Positions 2,208-28,413 of a stretch of DNA of 28,413 bases are shown one piece after another. The notes below the pieces were generated by a model. That model saw only the letters and a program-made list of their open reading frames with translations, did no database searches and was not told where the DNA came from. The position numbers were made by a program, and so were the translations under genes. The DNA comes from a virus, in IMG/VR virus record IMGVR_UViG_3300042321_000958, positions 1 through 28,413 of that record, one strand, 5' to 3'. Within the stretch, counting starts at the first letter, position 1. Each line of letters opens with the position of its first letter.

Positions 2208-2834
2208 ATGTCACAGTTCAGCATTGACGCTTTCAGAGCCAACCTCATCAACGGTCTGGCCCGCAACAACCTCTTCCTCATTCAGGGGAACTTCCCCGGT
2301 GCGAACACCAGTTCCATTCAGGGAGCCGCTGCCGTCGCCGGAGCACTTTTCGGCGGGGCTGTGTCGGGTGCCATCAATGCCGTAGCAGCCGCTGCGGGTG
2401 GTGGAAATCCGAGTGCTCAGGTGTCGTTCCTCTGCAAGGCATCCAAGTTGCCGGTATCCACCATCAACATCAACAACGCCATGTACATGGGTCGCCAGTT
2501 CAAGTATCCGGGTGACCGCTCGTTCGCCGACTGGTCGGTGACCTGCTATAACGACGGGTCATATGGTCTTCGCAAGGCGTTTGAGTCGTGGATGAACCTC
2601 ATCAACACCAACCGCAGCAATGTCGGTCCGAACGCGATGAACCAGTTCATGACCGACTGGACGGTCACTCCTCTCACCCGCGAGGGCAATCCCATCACTA
2701 CCTATAAGTTGGTGGGATGCTGGCCTTCAACCTTCGGTGATGTGACCCTTGACATGGCGGCACAGTCCGAGCCGTCCACCTTTGATGTCACCATTGCCTA
2801 TCAGTACTTTGAGATTGATGGCACGACCACCTGA
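2208..2834 (+). CDS. 19: Tail tube protein gp19
   Basis: A 208-residue protein, longer than T4 gp19 (163). It has a hydrophobic Ala/Gly insertion near residues 40-65 (GAAAVAGALFGGAVSGAINAV...) and then the conserved tube features: FLCKASKLPVSTI, GRQFKYPGDRSFADWSVTCYND, a helical RKAFESWMNLIN and a closing beta section ending ITIAYQYFEID-like. Gp19 hexamers stack into the rigid tube inside the sheath. The ATG at 2208 follows a strong AAAAGGAG. The Ala/Gly insert looks unusual for gp19 and might line the tube lumen or outer face; I cannot tell which. Confidence 0.9.
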   Translation: MSQFSIDAFRANLINGLARNNLFLIQGNFPGANTSSIQGAAAVAGALFGGAVSGAINAVAAAAGGGNPSAQVSFLCKASKLPVSTININNAMYMGRQFKYPGDRSFADWSVTCYNDGSYGLRKAFESWMNLINTNRSNVGPNAMNQFMTDWTVTPLTREGNPITTYKLVGCWPSTFGDVTLDMAAQSEPSTFDVTIAYQYFEIDGTTT

Positions 2835-2859: not shown

Positions 2860-4365
2860 ATGGCCGAGTTCTTTGGCTTTCGCCTTGAGCGAAGTAAGAA
2901 GGAGAAGAAGCAGGCGAAAGACCTGAAATCATTTGTCGTTCCGACATTTGATGACGGTGCTATCCCTGTTGAGGCGGGTGGTTTCTACGGACAGTATGTT
3001 GATCTGGACGGCACGGTCCGGAACGACTTTGAACTGACGATGAAGTACCGTGAGATGGCGCAAGACCCCATCGTGGAAGTCGCCATTGATGACATCGTCA
3101 ACGAGTCCATCATCATGGGTGAAAACAAGGCACCCGTCAAGATTCAGATGGATCGCATGAAATCCACGGAGACGGTGAAGGAACGCATCCACGATGAGTT
3201 CCGGAACCTGCTACGGGTCATGCAGTTTGAGACCAAGGGTTCCGAGATCTTCCGCCGCTGGTATGTGGACGGCAAGATATTCTTCCACCTCATCATTGAC
3301 GAGGACAACCCACAAAAGGGCATCCTTGAGTTGCGGTATGTGGACCCGATGAACATCCAGAAGATCCGTGAGTACAAGAAGGAGACCCTTCCCAACGGGA
3401 CCAAGGTCATCTCCGGCTACACGGACTTCTACCTGTACAACAAGGACAATCCCCGTTCGGGTGGCAATCCGTCGGGCATCAAGATCAGCGAGGACGCGAT
3501 CGCGTTCTGCTCGTCGGGTCTGATGGACACCCGCTACAAGCGGACGGTCGGCTTCCTCCACAAGGCCATCAAGCCCCTGAATCAGTTGCGGATGCTTGAG
3601 GATGCCGTGGTCATCTACCGCATCAGCCGAGCACCTGAACGCCGCATCTTTTACATAGATGTCGGTAACCTGCCGAAGACCAAGGCGGAGCAGTATGTGA
3701 AAGACCTCATGGGCAAGTACCGCAATCGGCTCGTATACGACGCTTCCACGGGAGAGGTGCGAGATGACCGCAAGTTCATGTCCATGCTTGAGGACTACTG
3801 GTTGCCCCGTCGCGAAGGTTCAAGAGGAACCGAAATCCAGACCCTCACCGGTGGTGCGAACCTCGGCGAGTTGACGGACATCGTGTACTTTCAGAAGAAA
3901 CTCTATCGTGCCCTGTCTGTCCCGCCGGGTCGCCTTGAGCAGGACAAGCAGTTCATGCTCGGGCGTGCGAGCGAGATCAGCCGTGACGAGGTCCGGTTCG
4001 CCAAGTTCGTCCACCGGCTCCGGACCAAGTTCTCGGAACTCCTGTACGACATCCTCAAGAAGCAGTTGATCCTCAAGAAGATCATCACGGCAGACGAATG
4101 GCCGGAGATCAGGGAGGCGATCTACTTTGACTTCCTCAAGGACAACCTGTTCACCGAACTCAAGAACTCGGAACTCCGAAAGACGCAGATTGAGGAGTTG
4201 GGGAACATCAAACCCTACATAGGTAAGTATTATTCTCACCTATGGGTCCAGAAGAATGTGCTCGGCTTCAGCGAGTCCGAAATCAAGGACATGGAGCGTC
4301 AGATTGAGCGTGAACGCAACGCCGGTAAGATTGAGCCGGATAACACCCAGTTCGGTCTCGTATAA
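2860..4365 (+). CDS. 20: Portal vertex protein gp20
   Basis: The 501-residue product (T4: 524) shows the portal family signature: YREMAQDPIVEVAIDDIVNE near residues 62-81, FRRWYVDGKIFFHLIID around 134-150, LRYVDPMNIQKIREY, YRISRAPERRIFYIDVGNLP around 252-271, and GANLGELTDIVYFQKKLYRAL followed by PPGRLEQDKQF. The portal is the dodecamer at one capsid vertex; it nucleates prohead assembly and is the channel for packaging and ejection. It lies 25 nt after the tube gene with no late box of its own, so it is probably read from the gp19 promoter. The ATG is preceded by TGAGG. Confidence 0.96.
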   Translation: MAEFFGFRLERSKKEKKQAKDLKSFVVPTFDDGAIPVEAGGFYGQYVDLDGTVRNDFELTMKYREMAQDPIVEVAIDDIVNESIIMGENKAPVKIQMDRMKSTETVKERIHDEFRNLLRVMQFETKGSEIFRRWYVDGKIFFHLIIDEDNPQKGILELRYVDPMNIQKIREYKKETLPNGTKVISGYTDFYLYNKDNPRSGGNPSGIKISEDAIAFCSSGLMDTRYKRTVGFLHKAIKPLNQLRMLEDAVVIYRISRAPERRIFYIDVGNLPKTKAEQYVKDLMGKYRNRLVYDASTGEVRDDRKFMSMLEDYWLPRREGSRGTEIQTLTGGANLGELTDIVYFQKKLYRALSVPPGRLEQDKQFMLGRASEISRDEVRFAKFVHRLRTKFSELLYDILKKQLILKKIITADEWPEIREAIYFDFLKDNLFTELKNSELRKTQIEELGNIKPYIGKYYSHLWVQKNVLGFSESEIKDMERQIERERNAGKIEPDNTQFGLV

Positions 4366-6380: not shown

Positions 6381-6806
6381 ATGAAGACACTCACCATAAG
6401 ACTCCGTGACGATGACGCTGCGAATGCCTTCGCTGGTCACTTTTCGTCCATGGATCCGGTCGTGTCCGTGCTGGTGGAAGGGAATGTCGTGACCCTGCGT
6501 TCGGAGGATCCGAGGCTGGTCGCGATGGTTCGGGAGATGCAGGAGGATAGCAAGATGCGGTCCATGGCTGACTCCATGTTGAAGGCTATCGTTGAGTGCC
6601 TCACCGACAAGACGCTCAAGCAGGTCACTTTCATGGACGGGAGCGTCGGACGCATGACCCGCCAGCAGGCACAGGCAATGTCAAGGGTCCATGACCGGCT
6701 GGACGAGAGCAACAGGGCTGCTTTCCTGATCCTCGCCTCGCAGGATAAGTACTCGTTTGACAAGGTGGTTGAGTTCTCAAGACGCAACGAAGGAGAGGTA
6801 GCATGA
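6381..6806 (+). CDS. Unknown protein in prohead gene group
   Basis: A 141-residue protein with a beta-type start (MKTLTIRLRDDDAANAFAGHF...VVSVLVEGNVVTLRSEDP), which resembles a small ferredoxin-like or ACT-like fold by alternation of hydrophobics only, followed by a helical, charged second half (about 45-141). There are no motifs I can name. It starts 9 nt after the 404-residue protein gene; the only purine-rich stretch (GGAAGGG) is 13 nt from the ATG, so initiation may depend on coupling. The stop overlaps the next ATG (ATGA). Probably a head or core component by context. Confidence 0.55.
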   Translation: MKTLTIRLRDDDAANAFAGHFSSMDPVVSVLVEGNVVTLRSEDPRLVAMVREMQEDSKMRSMADSMLKAIVECLTDKTLKQVTFMDGSVGRMTRQQAQAMSRVHDRLDESNRAAFLILASQDKYSFDKVVEFSRRNEGEVA

Positions 6807-7162
6807 CAACCAGACAGATCGTAAAGACACAGAAGAGAGCGGTGTTCCTGACATCGCCGAACAGCACCGGAGACATCATCGGGCTGACTGCCAGTGCCTA
6901 TTGGAACTACAGCAATCCCGATGGTGCCACATCAGGGGAGATTGCCCACCGCAACGGCAGCATCACCGGCGGATCGGCGGCATTGTCCAAGGTGGTTTGC
7001 GGGGACTCCTGCATCGTTGAGCAGAAGGGCGACATCATCTTCAGGTCAGCCAGTAATGGCGACTTCGCGTTTGAGCGTTTCACCATCAAGTCATCCTCTG
7101 CGGGAATCACGGCGGCGATCACCACCGGCAATGGAACCGCCATCACCGAGTTCGTCCTCTGA
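6803..7162 (+). CDS. Unknown small beta-rich protein, possible head decoration
   Basis: A 119-residue protein starting in an ATGA overlap with the previous gene, with GGAGAGG five bases before the ATG. It is Gly/Ser/Thr/Ile-rich with alternating polar and hydrophobic residues (GSITGGSAALSKVVCGDSCIVEQKGDIIF...SSSAGITAAITTGNGTAITEFVL), as expected for an all-beta virion protein. No membrane segment or signal peptide is visible. Co-translation with the prohead genes suggests a structural role such as a small capsid or decoration protein, but no family was recognised. Confidence 0.55.
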   Translation: MTTRQIVKTQKRAVFLTSPNSTGDIIGLTASAYWNYSNPDGATSGEIAHRNGSITGGSAALSKVVCGDSCIVEQKGDIIFRSASNGDFAFERFTIKSSSAGITAAITTGNGTAITEFVL

Positions 7163-7174
7163 CCGAGGGATAGG

Positions 7175-7181
7175 CTAAATA
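7175..7181 (+). promoter_or_regulatory. Late promoter box (CTAAATA) for prohead protease
   Basis: GCTAAATAAG lies 26 nt before the gp21 ATG in a 45-nt gap; ACAGGAGA at 7191-7198 follows as ribosome binding site. Confidence 0.7.
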
Positions 7182-7207
7182 AGACAAGGCACAGGAGACA
7201 CCGACAC

Positions 7208-7852
7208 ATGAAACTCATCTGCGAGATCAACGAGGACATTGAGGTTCTGACCGAGGACAAGAACGGGCAGAAGAGTTACTTCATTGAGGGCACCTTCCTA
7301 CAGGGAGACATCAAGAATCGCAACGGGCGGGTCTATGAGTTCAAGATGCTCAAGGACAAGGTGGAGCAGTACCGCAAGGAGTTCGTGGAGCAGAAGCGTG
7401 CGTTCGGCGAGTTGGGTCACCCCGAGGGTCCGACCATCAACCTTGAGCGAGTGTCCCACATGATCACCGAACTCAAGCCGGACGGCAAGAACTTCTACGG
7501 CAAGGCCAAGGTCATGGACACCCCCTATGGCAAGATCGTCAAGAACCTCATGGACGAGGGTGCCAAGTTGGGCGTGTCTTCCCGTGGCGTTGGTTCCATT
7601 GAGGAGAAGAACGGGGCCAACTATGTGAAGGACGATTTCCGTCTCTCCACCGCAGCCGACATCGTAGCAGACCCCTCCGCCCCCGAGGCATTCGTGCGTG
7701 GCGTGATGGAAGGAAGAGAGTGGGTCTACGAGAACGGCGTGCTCAAGGCAAGAGAGATTGAAGAGATCAAGGAATCCATCAGGCGGGCATCGTCCCGCAA
7801 CCTTGAAGAGCAGCAGATCAAGGCGTTCGCACGATTCATCCGCAGTCTGTGA
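7208..7852 (+). CDS. 21: Prohead core protease gp21
   Basis: The 214-residue protein (T4: 212) has the hallmarks of the herpes/T4 prohead serine protease family: GDIKNRNGRVY at 33-43, FGELGHPEGP with the catalytic His at 71, GKAKVMDTPYGKIVKNLMDEG, and the nucleophile motif GVSSRG at 122-127, followed by LSTAADIVADPSAPEAFV. The enzyme sits in the prohead core and cleaves scaffold and capsid proteins after L/I-x-E sites during maturation. It has its own late promoter box and a good AGGAGA. Order 21-22-23 is as in T4. Confidence 0.95.
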   Translation: MKLICEINEDIEVLTEDKNGQKSYFIEGTFLQGDIKNRNGRVYEFKMLKDKVEQYRKEFVEQKRAFGELGHPEGPTINLERVSHMITELKPDGKNFYGKAKVMDTPYGKIVKNLMDEGAKLGVSSRGVGSIEEKNGANYVKDDFRLSTAADIVADPSAPEAFVRGVMEGREWVYENGVLKAREIEEIKESIRRASSRNLEEQQIKAFARFIRSL

Positions 7853-7898: not shown

Positions 7899-8993
7899 AT
7901 GGACTACAACGAAGTAGAGGAAATCGAGGAGGTCATTTTGGACGAGGATGAGACCGAGTCCGATGACACCATTGAAGAGGCCAGTGCTCAGGAGAAGCAG
8001 GCCAAGAATCTCAGTGCCAAGCGTGGCATGGCAGAGGAAGAAGAAGAAGAGGAGCCGAAGAGCGGTGCCGCCAACAAGTCCCCCGCAGCAGCAGGGGCTG
8101 GCAAGGGCAAGTACAAGGGTCTCTACAAGGACGGCACCGGCAAGGGTGCTATCGTTCCGGAGCCGGTTGAGACCGGTCTGCCGGGTGGGGATGCCGCTTC
8201 CAAGTTCAAGGCGAATGTCGCCGCCAAGAAGGGTATGCGTGAGGACATTGATGTCCACATGGATGCCCTGTTCAACGGCGAGGAACTCAGCGAGGACTTC
8301 AAGACCAAGGCTTCCACCATCTTTGAGGCTGCGCTCACCGAGCGTGTTGATGCCATCCGTGCCGAGTTGGAGGAGGAGTACAACAATCGCCTCATCACAT
8401 CAATTGACGAGAGCAAGGCTTCGCTCACGGAGCAGTTGGACTCGTACCTCTCGTATGTCGTGGAAGAGTGGATGACCGAGAACAAGTTGGCGATTGATCG
8501 CGGTGTCCGCACCGAGATCGCCGAGGAGTTCATGAGCGGTCTTCGCAACCTCTTCCTTGAGCACGACATCGTTGTCCCCGAGAACAAGGTTGATCTCGCC
8601 GACGAGATGGCCGAGGCGGTGGACAGCCTCAAGGAGTCGCTTGACGAGGAGATGAAGAAGAACATCGCCTTGACCAAGGAGATTCGCGGCTTCCGCAAGC
8701 AGCAGATCCTTGACGAGATGGCTCATGACCTGACCCTCACACAGAAGGAAAGATTCCGCACCCTAGCCGAAGGCGTTAGCCTAGACGGCGAGGACGATGA
8801 TGTCCGCAACAAGTTGGGTGTCATCAAGGAGTCCTACTTCGGCAACGGCAAGACTCAGGTTCTCACCGAAGTGACTTCGGCCACCATCGAGGAGAACCTT
8901 GATGGCGAAGTCGCCTCCAGCGAGCCGGTCCAGAGACTCACCGAGTCCATGGAAACCTACGCCAAGACACTCAGCAGACTCAGCAAGCGATAA
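7899..8993 (+). CDS. 22: Prohead core scaffold protein gp22
   Basis: A 364-residue protein, longer than T4 gp22 (269). The N-terminal third is acidic and low-complexity (VILDEDETESDD, EEEEEEEPKS) and carries GLYxDGxGKGAxxPEP at about 74-89. From about residue 120 it is almost wholly helical and highly charged, containing the gp22-like block FKTKASTIFEAALTERV near 130-146 and LSRLSKR at the end. Gp22 is the main internal scaffold, degraded by gp21. Its place between 21 and 23 and its own late box support the call. The N-terminal motif shared with the 404-residue protein upstream is unexplained. Confidence 0.88.
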   Translation: MDYNEVEEIEEVILDEDETESDDTIEEASAQEKQAKNLSAKRGMAEEEEEEEPKSGAANKSPAAAGAGKGKYKGLYKDGTGKGAIVPEPVETGLPGGDAASKFKANVAAKKGMREDIDVHMDALFNGEELSEDFKTKASTIFEAALTERVDAIRAELEEEYNNRLITSIDESKASLTEQLDSYLSYVVEEWMTENKLAIDRGVRTEIAEEFMSGLRNLFLEHDIVVPENKVDLADEMAEAVDSLKESLDEEMKKNIALTKEIRGFRKQQILDEMAHDLTLTQKERFRTLAEGVSLDGEDDDVRNKLGVIKESYFGNGKTQVLTEVTSATIEENLDGEVASSEPVQRLTESMETYAKTLSRLSKR

Positions 8994-9051: not shown

Positions 9052-10407
9052 ATGGAACTCACCATTTCAGAAGCCCTTCAGAAGAAGTGGCAACCCATCC
9101 TTGAGCATCCGGACCTTCCGGAGATCAAGGACTCGTACCGTCGTACAGTCACGACCATGCTTCTTGAGAATCAGGAGCAGTACCTCAAGGAAGCAGTCCC
9201 GACGAACTTCAGCGGTGCTCAGTCGGTCGGTCAGGAAGGCGGCGGCAATGTCGCTCGCTGGGATCCGATCCTCATCTCGCTCGTTCGTCGCGCAATGCCG
9301 AACCTGATTGCCTATGACATCTGCGGCGTTCAGCCGATGAGCGGTCCGACCGGACTTATCTTCGCCATGCGTTCGCGTTACATCAATCAGACCGGTCCGG
9401 AGGCTCTGTATCAGGAAGCCGACACCTCGTTCGGTGGTTCGGGCAGCACCGGCACCACTGCCGCTGGTATCTACAGCACCGATCCGTTTGATGTCGGTGG
9501 CGTTGATCCGGTCAACGGTCTCGGTACTCCGTCGGGAGTCAAGGGAACCGCAGGATACACCACCTACAAGGGTGAGTCGCTCGGTGATACCACCAGCAAT
9601 CCGTTCCCGCAGATGGCATTCAGCATTGAGAAGACAACGGTTGAAGCAAAGACCCGCGCTCTCAAGGCTGAGTACACGATGGAACTCGCTCAGGATCTCA
9701 AGGCGATCCATGGCCTCGATGCCGAGACTGAACTCGCCAACATCCTGTCCAGCGAAATCCTCGCTGAGATCAACCGCGAAGTCGTTCGCGTGATCTATGC
9801 CAACGCCAAGTTGGGTGCCAAGAGCGGCACGACTCAGACGACTGGCGTGTTTGACCTCAATGTTGACTCCAACGGTCGTTGGAGCGTTGAGAAGTTCAAG
9901 GGTCTGCTCTTCCAGATTGAGCGCGAGTGCAACCAGATTGCCAAGGAGACTCGCCGAGGCAAGGGCAACTTCATCGTCTGCTCGTCGGATGTGGCTTCGG
10001 CCCTTTCAATGGCTGGCGTGCTTGACTACGCTCCGGCTCTCAGCACCAACCTCAATGTTGATGACACCGGCAACACCTTCGCCGGAGTCCTCAACGGCAA
10101 GTTGCGCGTGTACATTGATCCGTACTCGTCGCTCACGACCTCCCATGACTTCTTCATGGCTGGTTACAAGGGTTCGTCGGCTTACGACGCAGGTATGTTC
10201 TACTGCCCGTATGTCCCGCTACAGATGGTCCGTGCAGTCGGTGAGCAGTCCTTCCAGCCGAAGATCGGCTTCAAGACTCGCTACGGTCTCGTCAACAACC
10301 CGTTTGCCACCATCAATGCAGGATCCAGCGTTTCGGATCCGTACGATGCCAACGCCGTTCGCAAGAACATCTACTACCGCATCGTCAAGGTCACGAACCT
10401 CTTCTGA
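9052..10407 (+). CDS. 23: Major capsid protein gp23
   Basis: The 451-residue product has classic gp23 blocks: WDPILISLVRRAMPNLIAYDICGVQPMSGPTGLIFAMRSRY around 70-112, KTRALKAEYTMELAQDLKAIHGLDAE around 195-220, SSEILAEINREVV, and GYKGSSAYDAGMFYCPYVPLQ near the end. It forms the HK97-fold hexamers of the shell. A gp21-type L-x-E site, LKE at residues 45-47 before AVPTNFSG, is a good candidate for removal of the N-terminal peptide; LLE at 37-39 is an alternative. It has its own late promoter, strong ribosome binding site and a downstream terminator. Confidence 0.97.
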   Translation: MELTISEALQKKWQPILEHPDLPEIKDSYRRTVTTMLLENQEQYLKEAVPTNFSGAQSVGQEGGGNVARWDPILISLVRRAMPNLIAYDICGVQPMSGPTGLIFAMRSRYINQTGPEALYQEADTSFGGSGSTGTTAAGIYSTDPFDVGGVDPVNGLGTPSGVKGTAGYTTYKGESLGDTTSNPFPQMAFSIEKTTVEAKTRALKAEYTMELAQDLKAIHGLDAETELANILSSEILAEINREVVRVIYANAKLGAKSGTTQTTGVFDLNVDSNGRWSVEKFKGLLFQIERECNQIAKETRRGKGNFIVCSSDVASALSMAGVLDYAPALSTNLNVDDTGNTFAGVLNGKLRVYIDPYSSLTTSHDFFMAGYKGSSAYDAGMFYCPYVPLQMVRAVGEQSFQPKIGFKTRYGLVNNPFATINAGSSVSDPYDANAVRKNIYYRIVKVTNLF

Positions 10408-10468: not shown

Positions 10469-10471
10469 GTT

Positions 10472-10478
10472 CTAAATA
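10472..10478 (+). promoter_or_regulatory. Late promoter box (CTAAATA) almost touching the fusion gene start
   Basis: TTCTAAATAGG ends 8 nt before the ATG at 10487. With the usual 5-7 nt from box to start point, the transcript would begin only a few bases before the ATG, so there is no room for a ribosome binding site and none is seen. Confidence 0.6.
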
Positions 10479-10486
10479 GGTTTGGC

Positions 10487-13400
10487 ATGACCACCACCAT
10501 TACCCACACAGCACAGGGCATCACTTACGAATGGACCCTCAACCTGTCCGGTCTGACCCACGGGACATTCTGGGACGGGTCTCCATATGTCGTCGCACAG
10601 TCGGGGATGAAGGTGATGAATGTCCATATCACCAGCATCATCGGTGGGGTCAGCGTCACCGAGAATCCGTTCCGTAAGGAATATCATGCCTTGGCAACCA
10701 ATACGAATGGCAGCATATTCTACGGTCACTTATACCTGAACGGGATGGCCAAGAATCCATTGGGCATCATCGACACATCCCCCTCGGCAAATTCGAGGGA
10801 GAGATTTAATCGGTGTATTTTTGATTCCAGAACATTTGATGCGTTTGATGGAGGATGGAGGCAAAGAACCAAGTCCACCGACATTCAATCCTCTTACAGC
10901 CATTTCGCACTGGATGACTTCATGGCGAACAAGGCACTCATCGAAAATGGTACAGGCTTCACAGCCGCAGCGAATGATGTGTTTTTGGTGGCAAAATCGA
11001 ATTACGACCCCAACGACCCCAACACATATACAACTTCTCGTTCGGGGGGGTATCCGTATCAAAAACACCGTAACCGCAGCAATGTGCTCGGTTATGGCAC
11101 TCTTTTCGTTCTGGCAGAGCATCCGGAAGAGACCTGTTTCCGTCCTCCGGTATTCTGGCCAGAAGAAGACCTTGCAAATAGACCCCTTCACGCTTTGTCC
11201 GAAATAACAGGGAGAGTCCCATCGGGAGCGGAGATAAAGCCGACCATCTCCGGCTCATCTTCAAACAGACCCCCTTCATACGCGGACAACAACTTCGTGG
11301 AGTTTTGCTATGGCTTCCCCATCGGAAATGGCAACACCTACTCACAGTTCATGCCCCTGTATCCAGCACATGGCGCAAATACTCCGGGTGATTCTTACGG
11401 GGCATATTATCAGATTGGACTCTTCGATCGATTGAAGGCCATTTACTCGGATGCAAGCAACACCAGCCTGTCCGAACAGAATCGACTGAAGATACTGCGG
11501 TCTGTTGTCCAGTGGGGAATTGATGCATTTGGTGGCATCAAGTCGTTTGCATCATTGGGTAGCGGTGCCGGACAGCGACCATGCACATCAAGACCATGGT
11601 CAATTATAGCAGGATGGTTCCTCAACAATGACGACATGCGTGCTCCGGAAACTACCATGTTGTACGGCAGTTATGCAAACAGGACAACAGGAGTAATCAC
11701 ATCGAGAGCGAATGCCTATCTAAACTCGCCCGATTTGAATGACGCGGAAACCCGTACCATGAAGGGATACAGAAGCGCATCTGTCGGGGGGACCGATGGA
11801 TATGTGGTCAATAGGGGAGAGTGGGAACGACAAGTTTTCGGCAATAAAAACACCGACGCAGGCAAGAAAAGAAGACTTGCGAGACGAACATCGTTGGAAT
11901 CCATTTGCTACTTCAAGGTAAGTGGGGACATCGATCAATCGAGGATGCTCTATTACAAAAATCTAGGGAAAGTCCACAATCGTGTATTTGGACACGGCGT
12001 GACCGACTCTCCCCAAGTTACGGCAGGAACACTGGATATCACAACTCCGGTGCGATTCCTCCAAACAAAAACAAACACATTTGCGGGGACCATGGCATAC
12101 CTTCGATGGTCTCAGAATCCATTTCCCAGAGGATGGACATTCACCCATGCGGGAAAGAGTCCGACCATCGATTTTTCATACATCAGGGTGACGGAAGATC
12201 CTGACAGCAATACCAGCACCACTCAACACTATCGCATCCTTAAGTGCGCGGGGGATTTTCGCAGCAACCTACCCACCAACGGATACTACACCCTTTATCT
12301 CGACAGGGAATGGGTTGGTGGTATACCCAGCCCCAGAGCCAAGTATGAAATGGTTCCCTTCACCGAAAATGATGTTGGCGACATCTTTTATGTCATCGCA
12401 TATGTTGCTTTTGACGGTAGCGACAGTGCCCTCGTAGATGCCAATCCAAACCCATACACGATATACGGCGGGATTTGCTATCCACCCATGCTCTCGGTCT
12501 ATTCGTGGATAAAGTATGCCAAGCGAGAATTGAATGGTGGAAATCCGGTGGACCTTGACGAGGACTCGACACACGCACATGAGTTCTTGGAGCAAATCAC
12601 CCGCAAGATGGCCTACAGTTTCTACGACTACAATTTACCTTGGATGGCAGGTCTCCATGGAGCATGGGAAAAAACAGCACTGGGTAAATGGTTGAATCTC
12701 AAGAATCCGATCGAAGACGGCTGGGAGGGTGTGGCTTTCGACAAGGGGCAAAATGGATGGGAACAGGGTGCTCCTCATGTTGAGGTGTGGAATGGTGTGT
12801 CCATCATTGATTTGAATTTTGGTGACGAGGAAGACCTTCCCCTTCCCATAGACCCAGACCTACTAATCGATGACCCTATAGTCAATGAAGGCGAAAGCGA
12901 TGATGCTGACGCGGGAGGAGAAGATGAGCCTACACCCAACATCAAAAACAATCTTCTGGACCCCTTGGGTGTCGCGAAGAAGTCAAATCCATTCGGAGTT
13001 CGTGGGGTTTACTTTGACACGGACCGCAAGGCAGGCATAGCCAACCGCCAGCCCATCAACACGAACCCTGCGTTCACGACCAACTTCCGATTGATGATTC
13101 CGAAGGTGCGGGGTGGGGTGTTCTTCTGCACCGAGGTGTCCTTCCCGCAGACCACGATGGAGCCACTCAAGATTCCGGTCCCCCTGTCTCCGTCCCTGAA
13201 GTTCTTCGGCGACAAGTTGCAGCACGGCGAGATGACGGTCAAGTTCATCATCAACGAGGACTTCTCCAACTGGTTTGAGTTGACGGACTGGTTCCGCAAG
13301 ACCCAAAACTACTACGGCTTCTTTCAGGACGGGTCGCAGGCTCGCATGCTGAACGAGATCACGGACTCGGGGCAGTTGCTCATCCTCAACAACAAGAAGA

Positions 13401-13543
13401 ACCCCGTGGCTCGCATCCACTTTGATGGACTCATGATCACCGCTCTGGGCAACATGCCCATGAACTCGGCAGTTGCGGACAACAGCATCCTGTCTTGCGA
13501 TGCCACCTTCCAGTTCACCGGCTTTGACATCAAGGATCCCTGA
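10487..13543 (+). CDS. Large fusion protein: unknown ~780-residue body plus gp19-like tail-tube domain
   Basis: The start is taken as ATG 10487 (MTTTITHTAQG), because it aligns with the N-terminus of the paralogue at 15221 (MPTTIEHQTTG); the frame is also open a little upstream but only from a TTG. The 1018-residue product has three parts. Residues 1-778 are the shared body, with GTFWDGSPY, GYPYQKxRxRS, CFRPPVFWPEE, VQWGIDAFG, AGxGQ...RxWSIIAGWFL and RxPETTM. Residues 779-817 are an acidic linker rich in D/E/P. Residues 818-1018 resemble gp19 and the next gene (TNFRLMIPKV, KFIINEDFSNWFEL, LLILNNKKNPVA). The body DNA is visibly AT-richer than the flanks, while the gp19-like part has normal phage composition. 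I infer a virion protein in which the tube-like domain anchors a host-surface-acting body; the function of the body is unknown. Confidence 0.8.
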   Translation: MTTTITHTAQGITYEWTLNLSGLTHGTFWDGSPYVVAQSGMKVMNVHITSIIGGVSVTENPFRKEYHALATNTNGSIFYGHLYLNGMAKNPLGIIDTSPSANSRERFNRCIFDSRTFDAFDGGWRQRTKSTDIQSSYSHFALDDFMANKALIENGTGFTAAANDVFLVAKSNYDPNDPNTYTTSRSGGYPYQKHRNRSNVLGYGTLFVLAEHPEETCFRPPVFWPEEDLANRPLHALSEITGRVPSGAEIKPTISGSSSNRPPSYADNNFVEFCYGFPIGNGNTYSQFMPLYPAHGANTPGDSYGAYYQIGLFDRLKAIYSDASNTSLSEQNRLKILRSVVQWGIDAFGGIKSFASLGSGAGQRPCTSRPWSIIAGWFLNNDDMRAPETTMLYGSYANRTTGVITSRANAYLNSPDLNDAETRTMKGYRSASVGGTDGYVVNRGEWERQVFGNKNTDAGKKRRLARRTSLESICYFKVSGDIDQSRMLYYKNLGKVHNRVFGHGVTDSPQVTAGTLDITTPVRFLQTKTNTFAGTMAYLRWSQNPFPRGWTFTHAGKSPTIDFSYIRVTEDPDSNTSTTQHYRILKCAGDFRSNLPTNGYYTLYLDREWVGGIPSPRAKYEMVPFTENDVGDIFYVIAYVAFDGSDSALVDANPNPYTIYGGICYPPMLSVYSWIKYAKRELNGGNPVDLDEDSTHAHEFLEQITRKMAYSFYDYNLPWMAGLHGAWEKTALGKWLNLKNPIEDGWEGVAFDKGQNGWEQGAPHVEVWNGVSIIDLNFGDEEDLPLPIDPDLLIDDPIVNEGESDDADAGGEDEPTPNIKNNLLDPLGVAKKSNPFGVRGVYFDTDRKAGIANRQPINTNPAFTTNFRLMIPKVRGGVFFCTEVSFPQTTMEPLKIPVPLSPSLKFFGDKLQHGEMTVKFIINEDFSNWFELTDWFRKTQNYYGFFQDGSQARMLNEITDSGQLLILNNKKNPVARIHFDGLMITALGNMPMNSAVADNSILSCDATFQFTGFDIKDP

Positions 13544-13545
13544 CC

Positions 13546-14115
13546 ATGGCATCCCCCAACATAGACAACTGGATCGCGAGGATCAAGGAGTACGGCGTTC
13601 TACAGAACCAGCCGAACAACTACAACCTCGCGAGTTCCACCAACTTCCGGTTCATGCTGGACAAGATCCCGACGGTCACCTACTTCTGCATGTCGGCGAA
13701 TGCACCCTCGTTCTCGTCCGAGCCGCAGGAGTATCCATACATGATGGGTGTCAATCCCAAGTTCCCCGGTGGTCGCTCGTCCACGGACATCTCCATCCGG
13801 TTCATCATAGACGAGGGGTTCATCAACTACCGCGAGATGTACAAGTGGATGCGGTCGGGTTTGCCCTATCGTGACTTCACGGAGATAGTGCCGGAGTACA
13901 AGTCCACGCCGAGCGATGGCAGGCTGTTCCTCCTGAACAACAAGAAGAATCCCATCAAGTGCATGACCTTCTCCAACCTGATCCCCACCCAACTCAGTGG
14001 GTTCACGCTGACGCATAACGAGACGGAACCATCGGTGCTGACCGCGACAGTCAACTTCGTCTACGATGTGTTCAATGTGTTTGATGTGCCGAGTAGCGAC
14101 CCCAATATCTACTGA
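13546..14115 (+). CDS. gp19-like tail tube/baseplate protein
   Basis: A 189-residue protein 2 nt after the fusion gene. It aligns by eye with the C-terminal domain of that fusion: TNFRFMLDKIPTVTYFC, SIRFIIDEGFINYREMYKWM, LFLLNNKKNPIKCMTF, LSGFTL. It is more distantly like gp19 at 2208. In T4-like phages, tail-tube-fold proteins besides gp19 include the tube initiator gp54 and other baseplate parts, and marine relatives often carry extra gp19-like genes. I call it a tail-tube-fold protein of the tail or baseplate without naming the T4 counterpart. No late box precedes it, so it is likely co-transcribed with the fusion gene. Confidence 0.75.
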   Translation: MASPNIDNWIARIKEYGVLQNQPNNYNLASSTNFRFMLDKIPTVTYFCMSANAPSFSSEPQEYPYMMGVNPKFPGGRSSTDISIRFIIDEGFINYREMYKWMRSGLPYRDFTEIVPEYKSTPSDGRLFLLNNKKNPIKCMTFSNLIPTQLSGFTLTHNETEPSVLTATVNFVYDVFNVFDVPSSDPNIY

Positions 14116-14252
14116 AGCGGCGATGCCTTGCGGGACCGAGCCGGTCGCTGGGACAACTTGGTGGTCTCTTTCCGCCGCCGGTCTGCCGGATTGGCTGCTC
14201 GCTTGGGTTGGCTGGACCTCTTGGACTTCACTACGCCTTTGCGTCTGGGCAT
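14109..14252 (-). CDS. Hidden 47-residue basic protein, antisense in the late block
   Basis: An ORF of 47 residues on the - strand, starting MPRRKGVVKSKRSSQPKRAA and very rich in Lys/Arg with Ser, Pro and Ala; it has almost no hydrophobic residues. The ATG at 14252 has a perfect GGAGG (14259-14263) six bases upstream. On the same strand CATAAACA (14269-14276) is close to the late box. It fills an otherwise empty stretch between 14116 and 14278 and overlaps the end of the gp19-like gene by 7 nt. The composition fits a nucleic-acid-binding or internal DNA-associated protein, but no family was recognised and expression is unproven. Confidence 0.55.
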   Translation of the reverse strand: MPRRKGVVKSKRSSQPKRAANPADRRRKETTKLSQRPARSRKASPLQ

Positions 14253-14268
14253 GATGCACCTCCACCTG

Positions 14269-14285
14269 TGTTTATGCCATAAATA
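14269..14285. promoter_or_regulatory. Palindromic, possibly bidirectional late promoter
   Basis: TTTATG-C-CATAAA at 14271-14283 is an inverted repeat. Rightward it reads CATAAATAC (box 14279-14285), a good late promoter for the lipoprotein gene. Leftward it reads CATAAACAC (14269-14276), one base off the late consensus, and would serve the 47-residue basic ORF with its GGAGG. The rightward box ends only 5 nt before ATG 14291. Confidence 0.5.
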
Positions 14286-14290
14286 CGAGT

Positions 14291-15166
14291 ATGAGAACCC
14301 TCACCCTTCTCGCTCTAGCCGCAGCCATGCTGGCGACGGGCTGTCGTTCCACCCAACCCGAGACCGCAGTGAAGCCGACCTACAGCGTGTCCACCGACAT
14401 GGCCGTGACCACGGGATCGGTTGACCTGTCCATAGACACCATAGAGAAGGATGTCTCCGAAATCAAGGAAGAGGCATCCGTGATTCAGGTGGAGGCGGCG
14501 AAGATTATCGGGTCCAAGTCCGAGGAGCCGGTCATCCAGAGTGCCGAGGTGATTCGGGACTCGTCTACCAAGATTGAGTACAAGGCTCAGGACGCTGCCG
14601 AGGAGGTCGCCAGACTGCGAGCAGACAACCAGAGGCTTCGTGGCATGGGCGACTCTGTAGCCGCCCTACAGACCCGTATAGCCTCTCTGGAGGACTCCAT
14701 CTCCGTCCTGCGGGCGGATGCCCTGAAACGGCTCTACGCTTATGTGACGGTCTTCTGGATTATCGGCTTCGTCCTGATAACCGCCGCTGCCGTCCTTTTC
14801 TTCGTGTTCAAGAAAGCCGAGGGAGTTGCCTTGGGGTTGGTGGGGGTCACGGTCATCGGTTTTGCGTCCGCAGCACACTACTACTTGGAGCAGATCGCTC
14901 TGGTCGGTGCGTTCGTCCTCGTCGGGGCGTTCCTCGTCGCCATCTTCATGATCGGCACCACCGCCTACAAGGCCAAAGCCAACGGGATTGCCGTCGCAGA
15001 AATCGTGGAGATGGTGCAGATCCTCAAGGAGACGATGACCAAGGGAGAGCGCGAACGCATATTCGGAAAAAACGGTGTAGCCGACAGGATGCAGTCAGAC
15101 ATCACAAAAGCGGTAGTCCAACGCATCCTTGAGAAGGAAAAGGCTCCCGAGAAGCCGTCCAAGTGA
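14291..15166 (+). CDS. Membrane lipoprotein with coiled coil and three membrane segments, spanin-like candidate
   Basis: A 291-residue protein. It begins MRTLTLLALAAAMLATGC, a lipoprotein signal with lipobox LATG-C and Cys18 as the lipidated residue, which fixes the start at 14291. Residues about 45-145 are a charged helical/coiled-coil region (EIKEEASVIQVEAAKII, DAAEEVARLRADNQRLR, LQTRIASLEDSISVLRADAL). Three membrane helices follow at about 150-173, 178-197 and 202-224, then a charged cytoplasmic tail to 291. Outer-membrane lipid anchor, periplasmic coiled coil and C-terminal inner-membrane anchor are the layout of unimolecular spanins, which fuse the two membranes at lysis; known ones are shorter and have one membrane helix. 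A holin or envelope-modifying role is possible. It is late-expressed by its promoter box, but no ribosome binding site is seen. Confidence 0.6.
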   Translation: MRTLTLLALAAAMLATGCRSTQPETAVKPTYSVSTDMAVTTGSVDLSIDTIEKDVSEIKEEASVIQVEAAKIIGSKSEEPVIQSAEVIRDSSTKIEYKAQDAAEEVARLRADNQRLRGMGDSVAALQTRIASLEDSISVLRADALKRLYAYVTVFWIIGFVLITAAAVLFFVFKKAEGVALGLVGVTVIGFASAAHYYLEQIALVGAFVLVGAFLVAIFMIGTTAYKAKANGIAVAEIVEMVQILKETMTKGERERIFGKNGVADRMQSDITKAVVQRILEKEKAPEKPSK

Positions 15167-15173
15167 CCTGCTT

Positions 15174-15180
15174 CTAAATA
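15174..15180 (+). promoter_or_regulatory. Late promoter box (CTAAATA) for the dockerin-type paralogue
   Basis: TTCTAAATACCC lies 40 nt before ATG 15221 in the 54-nt gap after the lipoprotein gene; AAGGAGGGG at 15206-15214 is a strong ribosome binding site. Unlike the paralogue at 10487, this gene therefore has a normal leader. Confidence 0.7.
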
Positions 15181-15220
15181 CCCTAGATTCACAACCCAAG
15201 CCCACAAGGAGGGGCTACGC

Positions 15221-17743
15221 ATGCCAACAACGATTGAACACCAAACGACAGGCGTGAAGTATGTCTGGACCTTCAACCAAGATGTGGAGACCGGAACTTT
15301 CTGGGACGGAAGTCCCTACATCATCGCCAAACCCGATCTCAAGATGCTGTCTGTGGTCATGGAGACCGCTGACGGTGTGCTTGAGCCGAATACCATCGTC
15401 CCCGACCTTGAGTTGGGGTTCATGGGCAAGGCAGGATTCAAAGGTGAGTTGTACATCAACGGTCTCGCAAAGAACCCAAATCCATTTTCAGACATTGATT
15501 CTGAAGGCAACTTGCGATTGGATGGGCAGCCTTTTGATTGCCGCAACTTCGGTGTGTTTGACAGGGGGTGGATACAGTTCAAGACCGTAACCGACAAGAC
15601 CACCAAGAAGAGAACTAAAGTTCCGCTTCCCACAAACGATCCCGCATCTCACGGAAAGGCGTTCAATCTGGCGAAGTTCCTTGAGATGAAAAACACCCTC
15701 AAGAACGAAGGTGTATCACTAGAATCAGGAGATGTGCTTGTTCAGCAGTACTCCAACTTTGACATCAATTCGCCAGCAAAATGGGATGTAAATCGTGCGT
15801 CTGGCTATCCGTATCAGAAAGTCCGCAGTCGCTCCTGTACGATGTCGTTCGGCACATTGTTCGTCTTGGATGCTCATCCTACTGAAGTGTGCTTCCGTCC
15901 TCCGGTTTTCTGGCCAGAGGAAAACATCAAGAACAGACCGATGCATCCGGTTTCAAAACTGAATGCAACCCTTCCCACTGGCGATGATTTGGTTTCACAC
16001 CCGATCAGCGGTAAGATTCCCGCTTACGAAAAGGTTCCGACATGGGTAAATGATTCTACTTTCCGCACTTTCTGCTACGGTTTCGCAATCGGTGGGGGTA
16101 TTAATTACTCCATGTTCATGCCGCTTCTGGTAGGAGCAAAAACTCCGAATATCACGGATCAGTCAGTCATTTCGGCATATGGTGCATACTATCAGGCTCC
16201 CCTGTACACCCGTCTTTCGGCTATTTACTCGGATACGGTGTCCAGCCCGAATCGTCTTGAGGCTTTGAAATGCATTGTGCAGTGGGGAATTGATGCTTTC
16301 GGCTCTATCAAGTGCTTCGGTCAGACTGCTGCCGGTGCGGGGCAAAAGCCTGCCGGTACTCGTTCGTGGTCAATCATCGCCGGTTGGTTCTTGGGAATCC
16401 CCGAGATGAGAATGCCCGAGACCACCATGATGCAGGACCAGAAGCGTGCTGCGGGATGGTTGAGCAACAGCACTCCTCCGACCGAAACAGGAGAGGAAGA
16501 AGAGAATACGCCTTTCTCTGGCAACATCTACACGATAGATGCCCCCAGCGTTCCCGCAATCAACGGCAAGAAAATGACTGCCCTAGAAAGATATCAGATG
16601 CTTTATGGAGACGGGAACACTCTCCAAGGAAAGAAGCGACGGCTTGCACTGCGAACTTCGCAGGAAGGTACTACTTACTTCAAGGTGGTTGATGACCCGA
16701 ACAATTACATCTTCCACTACGACTACATGGGCAAAACCAAGCGTCGTAAGTTCACTGGTGTCGGGGGGATATTCACCAACACATCACTAGACGAGAAGGT
16801 TCCGCTTCCGAAGGTGCCTGGCGCGAACATGACGGGAAACTTCGCCAAGATGCATTGGATGAATGACCTGTCACCAGGACTTATTAGTTCATGGTATGGT
16901 TCTCACGATGGCAAATCGGGAAGTCTTTACTACTCATACATCAAGGTAAATTCGGGTCCGGGCGCAGGAGACACCCTCTATCGCATCATCCATACATGGG
17001 GAAGCATTCGTAGTGCCAATGCGGGTGGAAAAGCAACAGATCCTGTCTACTCGGGATACGGCTTTGTTCTAGACCGACCGTGGGCCAACGGCGTTCCGAA
17101 TGAGACATCGGAGTTTGAGATGATGACCGCAGTGAAAGAAAATGTCGGCGATGTATTCTATGTCACATCACCCTCACCCCATCATCCCGAGATTCCAGAT
17201 GCAAATCTCTCGCCGTACACCGCGTATGCCGACATTTGCGAACCGCAAGTGCTACGACACTACGGGTGGATGAACTACATCAAGATCAAGACCGGAACCA
17301 ATGCAGACCTTGATGCGGATTCAACCTTTGCACATGATTATGCTCATAGGTGTCTTTATCAGACTCCGTACAATCAAGCCACTTACAGAACAGGCTTCCT
17401 GCACACCTCTGGAATGAGACAGTGGGAGATGGCAATTGTTGGAAGATGGTATAACCGTCCTTGGAGCAATGCGGACATCGCCAAGACCATGGACTGGTCC
17501 AAGATTCCGGGAGCAAAGACATGGATGGGTGTTCCCGTGGGAGACACCTCGGGAGGCAATGAACCGCTCGTCGGGGATTTTGACGAGAATGGTGAGATCG
17601 GACCCAGCGACTTGACCATGCTGTTGGCCAAGTGGGGACAGGATGCCGGATACACGGAGTATGACCTCAATGAAGACGGGATGGTTGACGCAGCGGACCT
17701 CTCCATCCTTCAGTCAAATTGGGGCAAGAAAAAGAAGACCTGA
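15221..17743 (+). CDS. Large paralogue of the fusion protein, ending in two dockerin-type EF-hand repeats
   Basis: An 840-residue protein whose residues 1 to about 775 align over their whole length with the body of the gene at 10487: GTFWDGSPY, YINGLAKNP, GYPYQKVRSRS, FGTLFVLDAHPTEVCFRPPVFWPEE, VQWGIDAFG, AGAGQKPAGTRSWSIIAGWFL, RMPETTM, KKRRLALRTS. Instead of a gp19-like domain it ends with two calcium-loop repeats at 786-806 and 815-835 (DxDxNGxIxxxDL...KWG and DxNxDGxVxxxDL...NWG), then KKKKT. Such repeats are dockerin type I-like and typical of planctomycete proteins. There is no N-terminal signal peptide. The WGIDAFG...GWFL part vaguely recalls (alpha/alpha)-toroid glycan-active proteins, but this is from memory only. 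It may be a tail fibre, adhesin or depolymerase. Confidence 0.75.
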   Translation: MPTTIEHQTTGVKYVWTFNQDVETGTFWDGSPYIIAKPDLKMLSVVMETADGVLEPNTIVPDLELGFMGKAGFKGELYINGLAKNPNPFSDIDSEGNLRLDGQPFDCRNFGVFDRGWIQFKTVTDKTTKKRTKVPLPTNDPASHGKAFNLAKFLEMKNTLKNEGVSLESGDVLVQQYSNFDINSPAKWDVNRASGYPYQKVRSRSCTMSFGTLFVLDAHPTEVCFRPPVFWPEENIKNRPMHPVSKLNATLPTGDDLVSHPISGKIPAYEKVPTWVNDSTFRTFCYGFAIGGGINYSMFMPLLVGAKTPNITDQSVISAYGAYYQAPLYTRLSAIYSDTVSSPNRLEALKCIVQWGIDAFGSIKCFGQTAAGAGQKPAGTRSWSIIAGWFLGIPEMRMPETTMMQDQKRAAGWLSNSTPPTETGEEEENTPFSGNIYTIDAPSVPAINGKKMTALERYQMLYGDGNTLQGKKRRLALRTSQEGTTYFKVVDDPNNYIFHYDYMGKTKRRKFTGVGGIFTNTSLDEKVPLPKVPGANMTGNFAKMHWMNDLSPGLISSWYGSHDGKSGSLYYSYIKVNSGPGAGDTLYRIIHTWGSIRSANAGGKATDPVYSGYGFVLDRPWANGVPNETSEFEMMTAVKENVGDVFYVTSPSPHHPEIPDANLSPYTAYADICEPQVLRHYGWMNYIKIKTGTNADLDADSTFAHDYAHRCLYQTPYNQATYRTGFLHTSGMRQWEMAIVGRWYNRPWSNADIAKTMDWSKIPGAKTWMGVPVGDTSGGNEPLVGDFDENGEIGPSDLTMLLAKWGQDAGYTEYDLNEDGMVDAADLSILQSNWGKKKKT

Positions 17744-17862: not shown

Positions 17863-18174
17863 CTATACCCTGACCCAGCCCGACTTGATGAGTTCCGCCC
17901 AAATTTCTCTCGCGAGCGGGGCGGGCACGGCACTGCATGTCCCGTCCTCGCGGTCGCTGTTCAGCACCATTGACCACGGGCCATAGGTCGGCAGGTTGAC
18001 CTCAACCTTGGGCATCGGTTCGCCCATACCCTGAAAACCCTCACCACAGAGACGGATGCCGTTGAGGGTATCGTTGGTGTGGGAGAACGACAGACGCTTG
18101 CGTGGATGCGTGGTCTTCTCAATCGTCCACTCGTTCACCCACCACTCATCTGTCTCGTCCAGTTCATCGCTCAT
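17863..18174 (-). CDS. Small unknown protein of the AR-W-L-GW family
   Basis: A 103-residue protein, last gene of the leftward block. The ATG at 18174 has AGGAGAT seven bases upstream and overlaps the deaminase stop by 11 nt. The N-terminus is acidic and Trp-rich (DETDEWWVNEW), the middle looks beta-rich, and the end is LAREIWAELIKSGW (87-100). That final helix recurs in four other small proteins of this window. Function unknown. Confidence 0.7.
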   Translation of the reverse strand: MSDELDETDEWWVNEWTIEKTTHPRKRLSFSHTNDTLNGIRLCGEGFQGMGEPMPKVEVNLPTYGPWSMVLNSDREDGTCSAVPAPLAREIWAELIKSGWVRV

Positions 18175-18514
18175 AAGTCATCTCCTGTATCCCCTCGCCG
18201 GTCGTGTAGCAGATGCGGTCAAACACCTGAACGCACCATGGTAGGCACTTGATGCACGGCTTGCTGAACCTCTCCTCGCCCATGCGGTTGAAGCGGAAGT
18301 TCCAGAGTTCAATGCCGTCCCGTTCCCTGCACTTGCGGAAGGCATCCAATTCGGAGTGCATCTCGTCAAACAGGTAGCCGTACTTCTTGGCCATCGGGTG
18401 TGTCTTCAGTTGGTTCGTTCCCACGGAAATCACCCTGCCCTTGCGGATGATCACGCTGCAATGCTTCTTGCGGCGGTCCATCTGAAGACACATCGCTTTC
18501 GCCAGTTCGTACAT
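18164..18514 (-). CDS. Zinc-dependent (deoxy)cytidylate deaminase-like protein
   Basis: From ATG 18514 the product has 116 residues. It shows the cytidine deaminase superfamily pattern: VIIRKGRVISVGTNQLKTHP, then H-S-E (His53, Glu55) and P-C-I-K-C (Cys87, Cys90), followed by RICYTTGEG. His and the two Cys would bind zinc and Glu would be the proton shuttle. The SKPC..C and YTT arrangement is like the small deaminases of marine T4-like phages; the substrate could be dCMP or a modified or free nucleotide. The start is uncertain: no ribosome binding site is visible and the frame is open further upstream to 18595, inside the preceding ORF. Confidence 0.72.
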   Translation of the reverse strand: MYELAKAMCLQMDRRKKHCSVIIRKGRVISVGTNQLKTHPMAKKYGYLFDEMHSELDAFRKCRERDGIELWNFRFNRMGEERFSKPCIKCLPWCVQVFDRICYTTGEGIQEMTYER

Positions 18515-18653
18515 GTTGCATGGACAATCTATCGCTGAGTTCATTGACGAGTCCCTCAAGACGCTTGATCTCTCGGTTCTTGTGACCGATCTCAACTATG
18601 CAGGCGACATATGCCCGCTTCAACGCCTTGATGAATGCCTGCTCTTCCGTCAT
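18366..18653 (-). CDS. Small helical ORF overlapping the deaminase start
   Basis: A 95-residue ORF whose ATG overlaps the stop of the AdoMet decarboxylase gene (ATGA), which argues for a real start. Residues 1-48 look genuine: helical and coiled-coil-like (ALKRAYVACIVEIGHKNREI, LEGLVNELSDRL). Residues 49-95 overlap the deaminase in another frame and look like out-of-frame sequence (Gly, Pro, Asp, Gln-rich). Either the two genes overlap by 149 nt, or a frameshift (biological or sequencing) joins this helix to the deaminase. Confidence 0.45.
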   Translation of the reverse strand: MTEEQAFIKALKRAYVACIVEIGHKNREIKRLEGLVNELSDRLSMQHVRTGESDVSSDGPPQEALQRDHPQGQGDFRGNEPTEDTPDGQEVRLPV

Positions 18654-27116: not shown

Positions 27117-27329
27117 TCACATGTACACACTCGCGATCATCACGCCAGCCCCCACGGCCACCGCGAACGGCAGCACCACGATGAGGAACCATGCCAGCCA
27201 GTCTTGTGACTTGGAACACTCGGCTCCACCACGCACTCCCGCATTGTCATGACACATACCCCACAGCATGACTTGGTAGACGACGAACACGGAACCGATT
27301 GCCGCAGCGTAACTCATGTTCTCACTCAT
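27117..27329 (-). CDS. Small two-helix membrane protein
   Basis: A 70-residue protein starting MSENMSYAAAIGSVF (ATG 27329, TGATG overlap with the VWA gene stop; GTG 27332 and ATG 27317 are alternatives). Hydrophobic segments lie at about 7-23 (AAAIGSVFVVYQVMLWG) and 43-68 (WLAWFLIVVLPFAVAVGAGVMIASVY), with two Cys in the loop between. Function unknown; co-translated with the VWA protein. Confidence 0.6.
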   Translation of the reverse strand: MSENMSYAAAIGSVFVVYQVMLWGMCHDNAGVRGGAECSKSQDWLAWFLIVVLPFAVAVGAGVMIASVYM

Positions 27330-28413
27330 CACTTGCTCACGATCTCGGCGACCCGAACCATCAGCGGACGGTTCGCACGGCGGGCGTTCATGACCTTCTT
27401 GAACTGGCTCCGCAGGGTACGCAGACCAGCCTTGTCGTTCGGGTTCGTGATCGCGGTCAGTTCCTCCTCAGCCTCAATCGTCGCGACGGGGAACACGATG
27501 TAGTCGTAGTAGCCAGCCGCACCCGACAGGTGGCACCAGTCGTTGTCCTTGATGCTCTTCTTGAGGGCATCCACGGTCTCCTGCCACTTGTCGGCACCCA
27601 CGCCCGCCCGACCCGGCAGCGACTCGGCGATGCCGTGGGCCTTCTTGGCGGTCTGGGCGACATGGATGCAGGTGGTGCGGATGCCACGGTCGGCGAGGAC
27701 TTGGAGGATGACCTCGGTCTGCTGCGAGGAGCAGGCACGGTTGTAGACCCGACCGTCATGGCTCTTCTTGGAGAAGTCATACTCCCGACGAGTCACGGGG
27801 TCACGCCAGACGAGACGGGGCCAGCCCGACTTGCCAGCCCGCTTCTCGTCCATCGCCTTGGACTGAATCTGGCTGTGGGTCAGGTCATCGCTCGCCTCGC
27901 CATCGGTCAGGACGATGAGGTTCGCGACCTGAAGCCGCTTCTCACGCTGGAACTTCGGGACGATATCCAGTGCCGCGAGGAGAGCCGCATTCAGCGGAGT
28001 CTGGTCAAGGTGGAACCAAGCGGGGATGTTGCCGTCATTCTTCGTGATGTTCGCAGCATTGAGAGCCTGAAGGGTCGGGCAGCGGTCCGAGCCGCGGTAA
28101 CCGGCACCACGGGTGGTGGCATAGGCGGTCCAGAGGAGGTAGCCGCACTGCTCGTTGAACTCCAGCGTCTTCATACCGTCCGACAGGAGGGTCAGGAGAC
28201 GGGTCCGGATCTTCTCGCCGTGGAACGAAGTCTCGGTGAAGTAGCCGGTGGTGCTGGCATAGGTGGCGGTGTTCTTGTCCGGACCATGGAACGAGGACCG
28301 GTCGGTGAACCCATAGAACCGGAACGGGATGTTGACGCGACGGCAGAAGTGTGCCAGCGTCACCAGTTGCGTCATCAGGTCAAAGAAGACCGGCTGGATA
28401 CTGCCGCTCATGT
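27329..28413 (-). CDS. VWA-domain protein, CobT-like (partial, 5' end outside)
   Basis: At least 360 residues; the frame runs off the right edge, so the visible first Met is internal. It begins (..MSGSIQPVFFDLMTQLVTLAHFCRRV.IPFRFYGFTD), matching the helix after the DxSGSM metal-site motif of phage VWA proteins, whose Asp lies outside. The third metal-site element is LIVLTDGEASDD near 165-176. Phage proteins of this type resemble the VWA domain of cobaltochelatase subunit CobT and commonly sit next to a MoxR/CobS-like AAA+ ATPase, which would be expected just beyond the edge. They probably form a chaperone-like ATPase/adaptor pair; the target is unknown. Confidence 0.75.
   Translation of the reverse strand, partial: MSGSIQPVFFDLMTQLVTLAHFCRRVNIPFRFYGFTDRSSFHGPDKNTATYASTTGYFTETSFHGEKIRTRLLTLLSDGMKTLEFNEQCGYLLWTAYATTRGAGYRGSDRCPTLQALNAANITKNDGNIPAWFHLDQTPLNAALLAALDIVPKFQREKRLQVANLIVLTDGEASDDLTHSQIQSKAMDEKRAGKSGWPRLVWRDPVTRREYDFSKKSHDGRVYNRACSSQQTEVILQVLADRGIRTTCIHVAQTAKKAHGIAESLPGRAGVGADKWQETVDALKKSIKDNDWCHLSGAAGYYDYIVFPVATIEAEEELTAITNPNDKAGLRTLRSQFKKVMNARRANRPLMVRVAEIVSK

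Follow-up and report, generated by a model that had tools for sequence, protein, structure and literature searches.

The window analysed here is a virus fragment of 28,413 bp from IMG/VR, in which Pfam and PHROG searches identified a T4-like structural gene block. The block includes genes for the sheath (294-2159), an ordinary gp19 tail tube protein that groups with T4 gp19 in a phylogenetic tree (2208-2834, plus strand; PHROG 45, E 2.4e-42), the portal (2860-4365), a protease (7208-7852), a scaffold (7899-8993), and the gp23 major capsid protein (9052-10407, plus strand; Pfam Gp23, E 5e-148). The gp23 gene fixes the synteny of the region as gp23 followed directly by gp3, an order shared with marine T4-like phages (cyanophage S-SSM7, S-CREM1, and DLP6). 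Upstream of the gp3 slot lies a putative late-promoter-like box, TCTAAATA (10471-10478, plus strand). The gene in the slot (10487-13543, plus strand) encodes a protein of 1018 residues in which an N-terminal body of about 780 residues that matches no known family (body1, 10487-12826, with cassette boundaries taken from comparison with the related contig L004) is followed by an acidic linker (12827-12940) and a gp19-fold domain of tube-terminator type with an N-terminal extension (gp3a, 12941-13543). Next is gp3b (13546-14115, plus strand; PHROG 45, E 5.2e-30), an unfused second gp3-like paralogue whose matches in phages are annotated as tail completion proteins. A lipoprotein-like gene (14291-15166, plus strand), with the lipobox LATGC, a coiled coil, and hydrophobic stretches, has no PHROG match and is kept beside gp3b in relatives (homologues L015_9059 and L019_9424). 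The gene at 15221-17743 (plus strand) encodes a protein of 840 residues, consisting of a second copy of the body (body2, 15221-17563) and a dockerin domain with two calcium-binding loops (17564-17743; Pfam PF00404). Farther downstream, a minus-strand frame at 18164-18595 has a weak dCMP-deaminase-like match (PHROG 174, E 0.0013), and a minus-strand gene cut by the window end (27329-28411) matches the peptidase family PHROG 459 (E 8.4e-33).

The initial annotation had taken the C-terminal part of the 10487 protein for a gp19-like tail-tube domain. The gp19 fold was upheld (PHROG 45, E 4.8e-25, residues 857-1015), but the tail-tube label was not, as the domain falls in the gp3 clade. Its best matches among phage genomes were cyanophage gp3 proteins, and among solved structures it matched the gp3 tube terminator 9mkb (E 2.3e-4). 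In a tree of gp3-type domains with T4 gp19, T4 gp54, and cyanophage gp19 and gp3, a branch with support of 99/99 split gp19 and gp54 from gp3. The fused gp3a domain and the standalone gp3a genes of relatives, which encode about 180 residues, formed one clade (support 100/100), with gp3b as the sister copy (88/85). Both this tree and the presence of a gp19 gene elsewhere (2208-2834) exclude identity as the major tail tube. On these sequence relationships the C-terminal domain is a tube terminator of the gp3 type and one of two gp3 copies in tandem, and body1 would thus sit at the neck and not along the tube.

A frameshift near 12940, which would make the gp3-like part a separate gene, was looked for and is absent. 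The fusion frame is open in the window and in two further contigs, L003 and L004. In L003 the fused protein is 100% identical as far as the contig reaches, while L004 carries the same in-frame fusion in a frame of 1036 codons, with a body that is 74% identical and a diverged linker. The open frame and this independent, diverged sibling rule out a frameshift or assembly artefact. In a third listed case, L117, there seems to be just an open frame upstream and no true fusion. As for an internal start yielding a separate gp3, the candidates are just TTG codons at 12812 and 12965, neither with an evident ribosome-binding site. The motif GGAGGAGAAGATGAG at the junction was considered as a relic of an old gp3 start codon, but neither L004 nor the aligned start of L028 supports this, and the motif follows from the Gly, Glu, and Asp codons.

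Relatives offer some indication of how the fusion arose. In L028, where gp3a is unfused, the gp23-gp3a interval, which contains a hairpin-like stretch and the late-promoter-like box, nearly matches the sequence preceding body1 in the window; the box also stands before the unfused gp3a gene in both L028 and L015. The upstream region of body1 is common to the unfused L028, so body1 was inserted downstream of the gp3 promoter region and directly ahead of the gp3 coding sequence. In L041, a distant virus, a body1-type gene and the gp3-type gene after it are separate, and the ATG of the second overlaps the stop codon of the first (an ATGA overlap, AGATGAG), with GGAGG upstream. This gp3-type gene forms a long branch in the tree, and no gp23-type capsid gene was found in L041. 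The two being separate but coupled in L041 and fused in the window points to a working partnership between body1 and the tail terminator.

The claim that the 10487 and 15221 proteins are homologous from their first residues was borne out by BLASTP far beyond chance (425 bits, E 2e-138), with an identity over 823 aligned columns of only 35%, which limits any inference that the two have the same activity. Both open reading frames are present at these positions, as are all of the conserved blocks reported earlier (GTFWDGSPY, CFRPPVFWPEE, VQWGIDAFG, and SIIAGWFL). The homology extends from residue 1 to about residue 780, and the C-termini differ. Of the idea of one activity with two anchors, the single body with two different C-terminal attachment modules stands, but the anchor described as a tail-tube domain is instead the gp3 tube-terminator paralogue. 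Also in line with the earlier reading, sequence and profile searches of Pfam, PHROGs, NCBIfam, and PDB sequences placed the body in no known tail-fibre family and returned no match for it. Searches of GenBank phage records and of plasmids were likewise negative at ordinary thresholds. Neither the body nor the trypsin-dockerin protein described below had a relative among 84,980 genomes at the sensitivity of the tool used, and a cellular origin for them was dropped. About nine more carriers of the body were found in IMG/VR, all of them viral contigs, in addition to a divergent member of 698 residues in L057 (28% identity, E 2e-19). Members of the body2 type have a dockerin C-terminus in every complete case (the window, L041, L042, L043/L046, L044, and L047), and in L041 the body2-dockerin and body1 genes adjoin each other. 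Ten tRNA genes (L041:1283-2916) lie immediately upstream of this tandem pair.

Structure prediction contributed less. Two AlphaFold runs on shallow alignments (10-22 rows) gave a mean pLDDT of 45 and 56, and these predicted models are too weak to yield the fold of the body. When the model was compared with the PDB using Foldseek, the dockerin was the sole confident match. A beta region of the model (499-645) had middling matches to a GTA virion chain (Z 7.5) and to tail Dit proteins (about 4.5), which may reflect merely a common arrangement. The viral protein A0A2D1GDH0 gave a structural match with E 3.3e-6 but a TM of 0.22-0.25. No catalytic or binding site was identified in the body through the sequence searches or the weak models. 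A protein of Microcystis phage Mwe-JY25 annotated as a carbohydrate esterase (XAI95886) is weakly collinear with the first ~340 columns of the body (HGQYADGS/GTFWDGS, FRP, QxxID), but has another C-terminus, with neither dockerin nor gp3. The comparison gave an hhalign E of 3.6e-4 but a probability of 37%, and a tblastn E of 0.03 from the divergent L057 body; we regard this relationship as a lead.

The two calcium-loop repeats reported at the C-terminus of the 15221 protein were confirmed as a dockerin by both sequence profile and predicted structure. The region scores 23.5 bits against Pfam Dockerin_1, for which the cut-off is 22.9, and its calcium loops read DFDENGEIGPSD and DLNEDGMVDAAD. 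When the AlphaFold model of the tail was superimposed on 2y3n_B, a type II dockerin of solved structure, 60 of 60 residues matched (Z 11.0, 1.9 A). With two calcium loops, a Pfam score above the cut-off, and the dockerin fold, the domain has the features of a Type I dockerin. The N-terminal signal peptide of a secreted cellulosome or planctosome enzyme is lacking in body2, the N-terminus of which (MPTTIEHQTTGVKYVWTF) shows no hydrophobic core on inspection.

Dockerins recur in related phages. In L042-L045 and L047 the gene immediately preceding body2 specifies a trypsin-like protein that is virus-specific and has a C-terminal dockerin; other contigs, of up to 174 kb, also encode it. Its catalytic triad (His97, Asp136, and Ser224, at alignment-reference positions) is conserved, its match to Pfam Trypsin is marginal (E 0.16), and no signal peptide was found in these proteins. 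At a neighbouring locus, several T4-like relatives encode a subtilase-dockerin with a signal-like N-terminus. In L005 (9502-10947), L008 (9480-10940), and relatives, the subtilase-dockerin gene lies next to gp3b, and in the encoded DTG motif Glu replaces the usual catalytic Asp (VFETG). A viral-contig protein of 2149 residues in L067 (3652-10098) contains about 29 dockerin-like repeats.

Cohesin-domain proteins are also encoded by related phages; G005, G027, and G033-G035 carry them together with a dockerin protein, and G003 has one cohesin-like domain. The trypsin-dockerin frame of G033-G035 is followed by the cohesin frame at a distance of 368 bp. The phage genomes of L059/L060/L061 (5941-8674), L052 (1495-7065), and L015 (13343-14458) code for a two-domain cohesin protein as well as a trypsin-like dockerin protein. 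Judged from their sequences, the neighbouring frames of L059/L060/L061 (368 bp apart in three contigs) are a possible viral cohesin-dockerin pair. The cohesin proteins of L052 (1519-2847) and L061 (7427-8674) have signal-peptide-like starts and the dockerin bodies do not, so that the partners may meet only at lysis. No cohesin was found in the 28-kb window fragment or in the other body-bearing records searched, most of which are fragments, and no multi-cohesin scaffoldin was found in the phages searched. Nor was a report of phage-encoded dockerin/cohesin pairs found in the part of the literature covered.

Proteins with a PEP-CTERM-like tail (GAIALLGLAGLFGRRRR) are encoded on the minus strand by two of the related phages (L008:16027-16761 and L015:14807-15556). 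Such tails are typical of exported planctomycete proteins. For freshwater Planctomycetes, a surface complex termed the "planctosome" has been proposed, in which peptidases are held via cohesin-dockerin contacts (PMC6461901). This proposal, together with the cohesins encoded beside dockerin proteins in relatives, strengthens the dockerin reading. Taking the style of the dockerins with the PEP-CTERM-like tails and the published planctosome, the hosts are probably freshwater planctomycete bacteria.

Comparison of sibling phages revealed replacement of the body genes. From the tube gene through the lipoprotein gene, nucleotide identity between the window and L004 is mostly 97-100%, whereas it is just 62-75% over body1 and the linker. 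The breakpoints lie at the start codon and inside the N-terminal extension of gp3, and identity returns within gp3. Across body residues 1-780, dN/dS between the two is about 0.09 with dS of about 2, near saturation, which argues that the body alleles are old and constrained and not decaying. Likewise, L047 and L043 share flanks of 93-100% identity and a protease-dockerin gene of 100% identity, while their body2 genes are 66-83% identical; L043 and L044 show the reverse, with body2 mostly at 92-99% and the protease-dockerin at 70-78%. In these three comparisons, then, a body or dockerin-protease gene has been replaced between near-identical flanks. Gene replacement of this kind is typical of phage genes whose products come into contact with the host or with its defences, and the pattern is as expected of host-interaction genes. 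To judge from these alignments, the bodies appear to be exchanged among sibling phages by recombination, like host-recognition cassettes.

We propose that the body, a protein specific to viruses, binds the host surface or acts on it and is kept in two attachment formats, with body1 displayed at the neck and body2 docked on a cohesin, a proposal to which we give an even chance of being right. With body1 joined in frame to one of the tandem gp3 copies, up to six copies of it would be displayed at the neck of the finished virion. Body2, having no signal peptide, would be made in the cytoplasm, and its dockerin would attach in a calcium-dependent manner to a cohesin encoded by the phage (as in the relatives) or present on the host surface. 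Sibling phages would exchange the bodies in the style of host-recognition cassettes. We infer the virion location, the docking partner, and the activity of the body, and it counts against the proposal that the host-surface role is drawn solely from cassette exchange and the anchors. Another point against it is that the terminator ring is partly buried beneath sheath and neck proteins, and body1 would be an 85-kDa N-terminal extension on this ring.

Other explanations have to be weighed. Of these, an artefact of assembly or sequencing, or a transient accident, is highly improbable as an account of the fusion; fused forms are confined to two distinct viruses, that of the window and L004, among about 50 distinct gp3-type domains collected, but the same in-frame fusion is present in L003 (identical) and in L004, whose body and linker have diverged at 25-38% of their bases, with a low dN/dS that indicates constraint. 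Alternatively, the fused gp3a might be an assembly accessory, its body a chaperone, scaffold, or part of a neck collar without host contact, and body2 a drifting paralogue with a host-derived dockerin. The unfused gp3b does remain as an intact terminator, and phage 812 (PMC12886913) and the Milano collar (PMC10491603) provide examples of structural proteins that decorate the neck. We nonetheless consider this account unlikely, since exchange of the body alone between near-identical phages would be unusual for an internal structural part, and since all complete copies of body2 retain the dockerin.

It could also be that neither body2 nor the dockerin proteases belong to the virion; as products released at lysis, they would dock on the host-surface cohesins of neighbouring cells and serve as decoys, exclusion factors, or scavengers. 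The lack of a signal peptide in body2 and the trypsin-like proteins, the signal-like N-termini that other dockerin proteins of the group (the subtilase-dockerins) do have, the conserved trypsin-like triad, and the planctosome on the host (PMC6461901) all fit such products. This reading is rather unlikely in our estimation, as the fusion of body1, a body of the same kind, to a virion protein makes the particle the probable site of action. Extending the two-format proposal, planctomycete phages may have adopted the cohesin-dockerin plug as an all-purpose means of attachment, in which interchangeable dockerin cargo (body2, trypsin-like proteases, and subtilase) would be carried on phage or host cohesins, or alternatively be hard-wired to the tail terminator; we advance this broader view as a tentative and somewhat doubtful one.

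The arrangement is real and unusual, but its separate parts are of known kinds. With the tail tube terminator gp3 of T4 and cyanophages (a tail completion protein and sheath stabiliser), the fused domain shares its fold family, tree clade, and position after gp23. The known gp3 proteins compared have about 170-195 residues, whereas here one of two tandem copies bears an N-terminal body and linker of ~820 residues. T4 fibritin whiskers, XM1 collar spikes, the Milano gp13 collar, and the terminator decoration proteins of phage 812 likewise represent extra protein at the neck, and the D domain of the Milano collar resembles glycan- and cell-surface-binding proteins (PMC10491603). These known appendages are separate, bound proteins; here the appendage would be a covalent part of the terminator, with a body unrelated by sequence to known families. 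With the cellulosome and planctosome (PMC6461901), the system shares a Pfam dockerin with two calcium loops, the dockerin fold, and cohesins in related phages, and proteases are among the dockerin cargo both in the planctosome model and in the related phages. Unlike these complexes, it is phage-encoded, its body2 and trypsin-like cargo have no signal peptides, and no multi-cohesin scaffoldin accompanies it in the genomes searched. Cassette-like exchange between siblings is a property the body genes have in common with tail fibres and receptor-binding proteins. No description of a body with two anchors, or of phage-borne cohesin-dockerin pairs, was found in the literature searched.

If the proposal is correct, a phage host-recognition part has two natural mounts, one genetic, through terminator fusion, and one a reversible protein plug of a type known so far from bacterial enzyme complexes. 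This would explain the dockerins and cohesins in lake viruses and would make phage attack on planctomycetes testable; no well-characterised planctomycete phage system was found in the literature searched. The sibling phages provide ready-made natural cassette exchanges for comparison. A further region of divergence between the window and L004 lies in the stretch from the portal gene to the protease gene (window 6500-7250), where identity is 82-97% and the neighbouring sequences are near identical.
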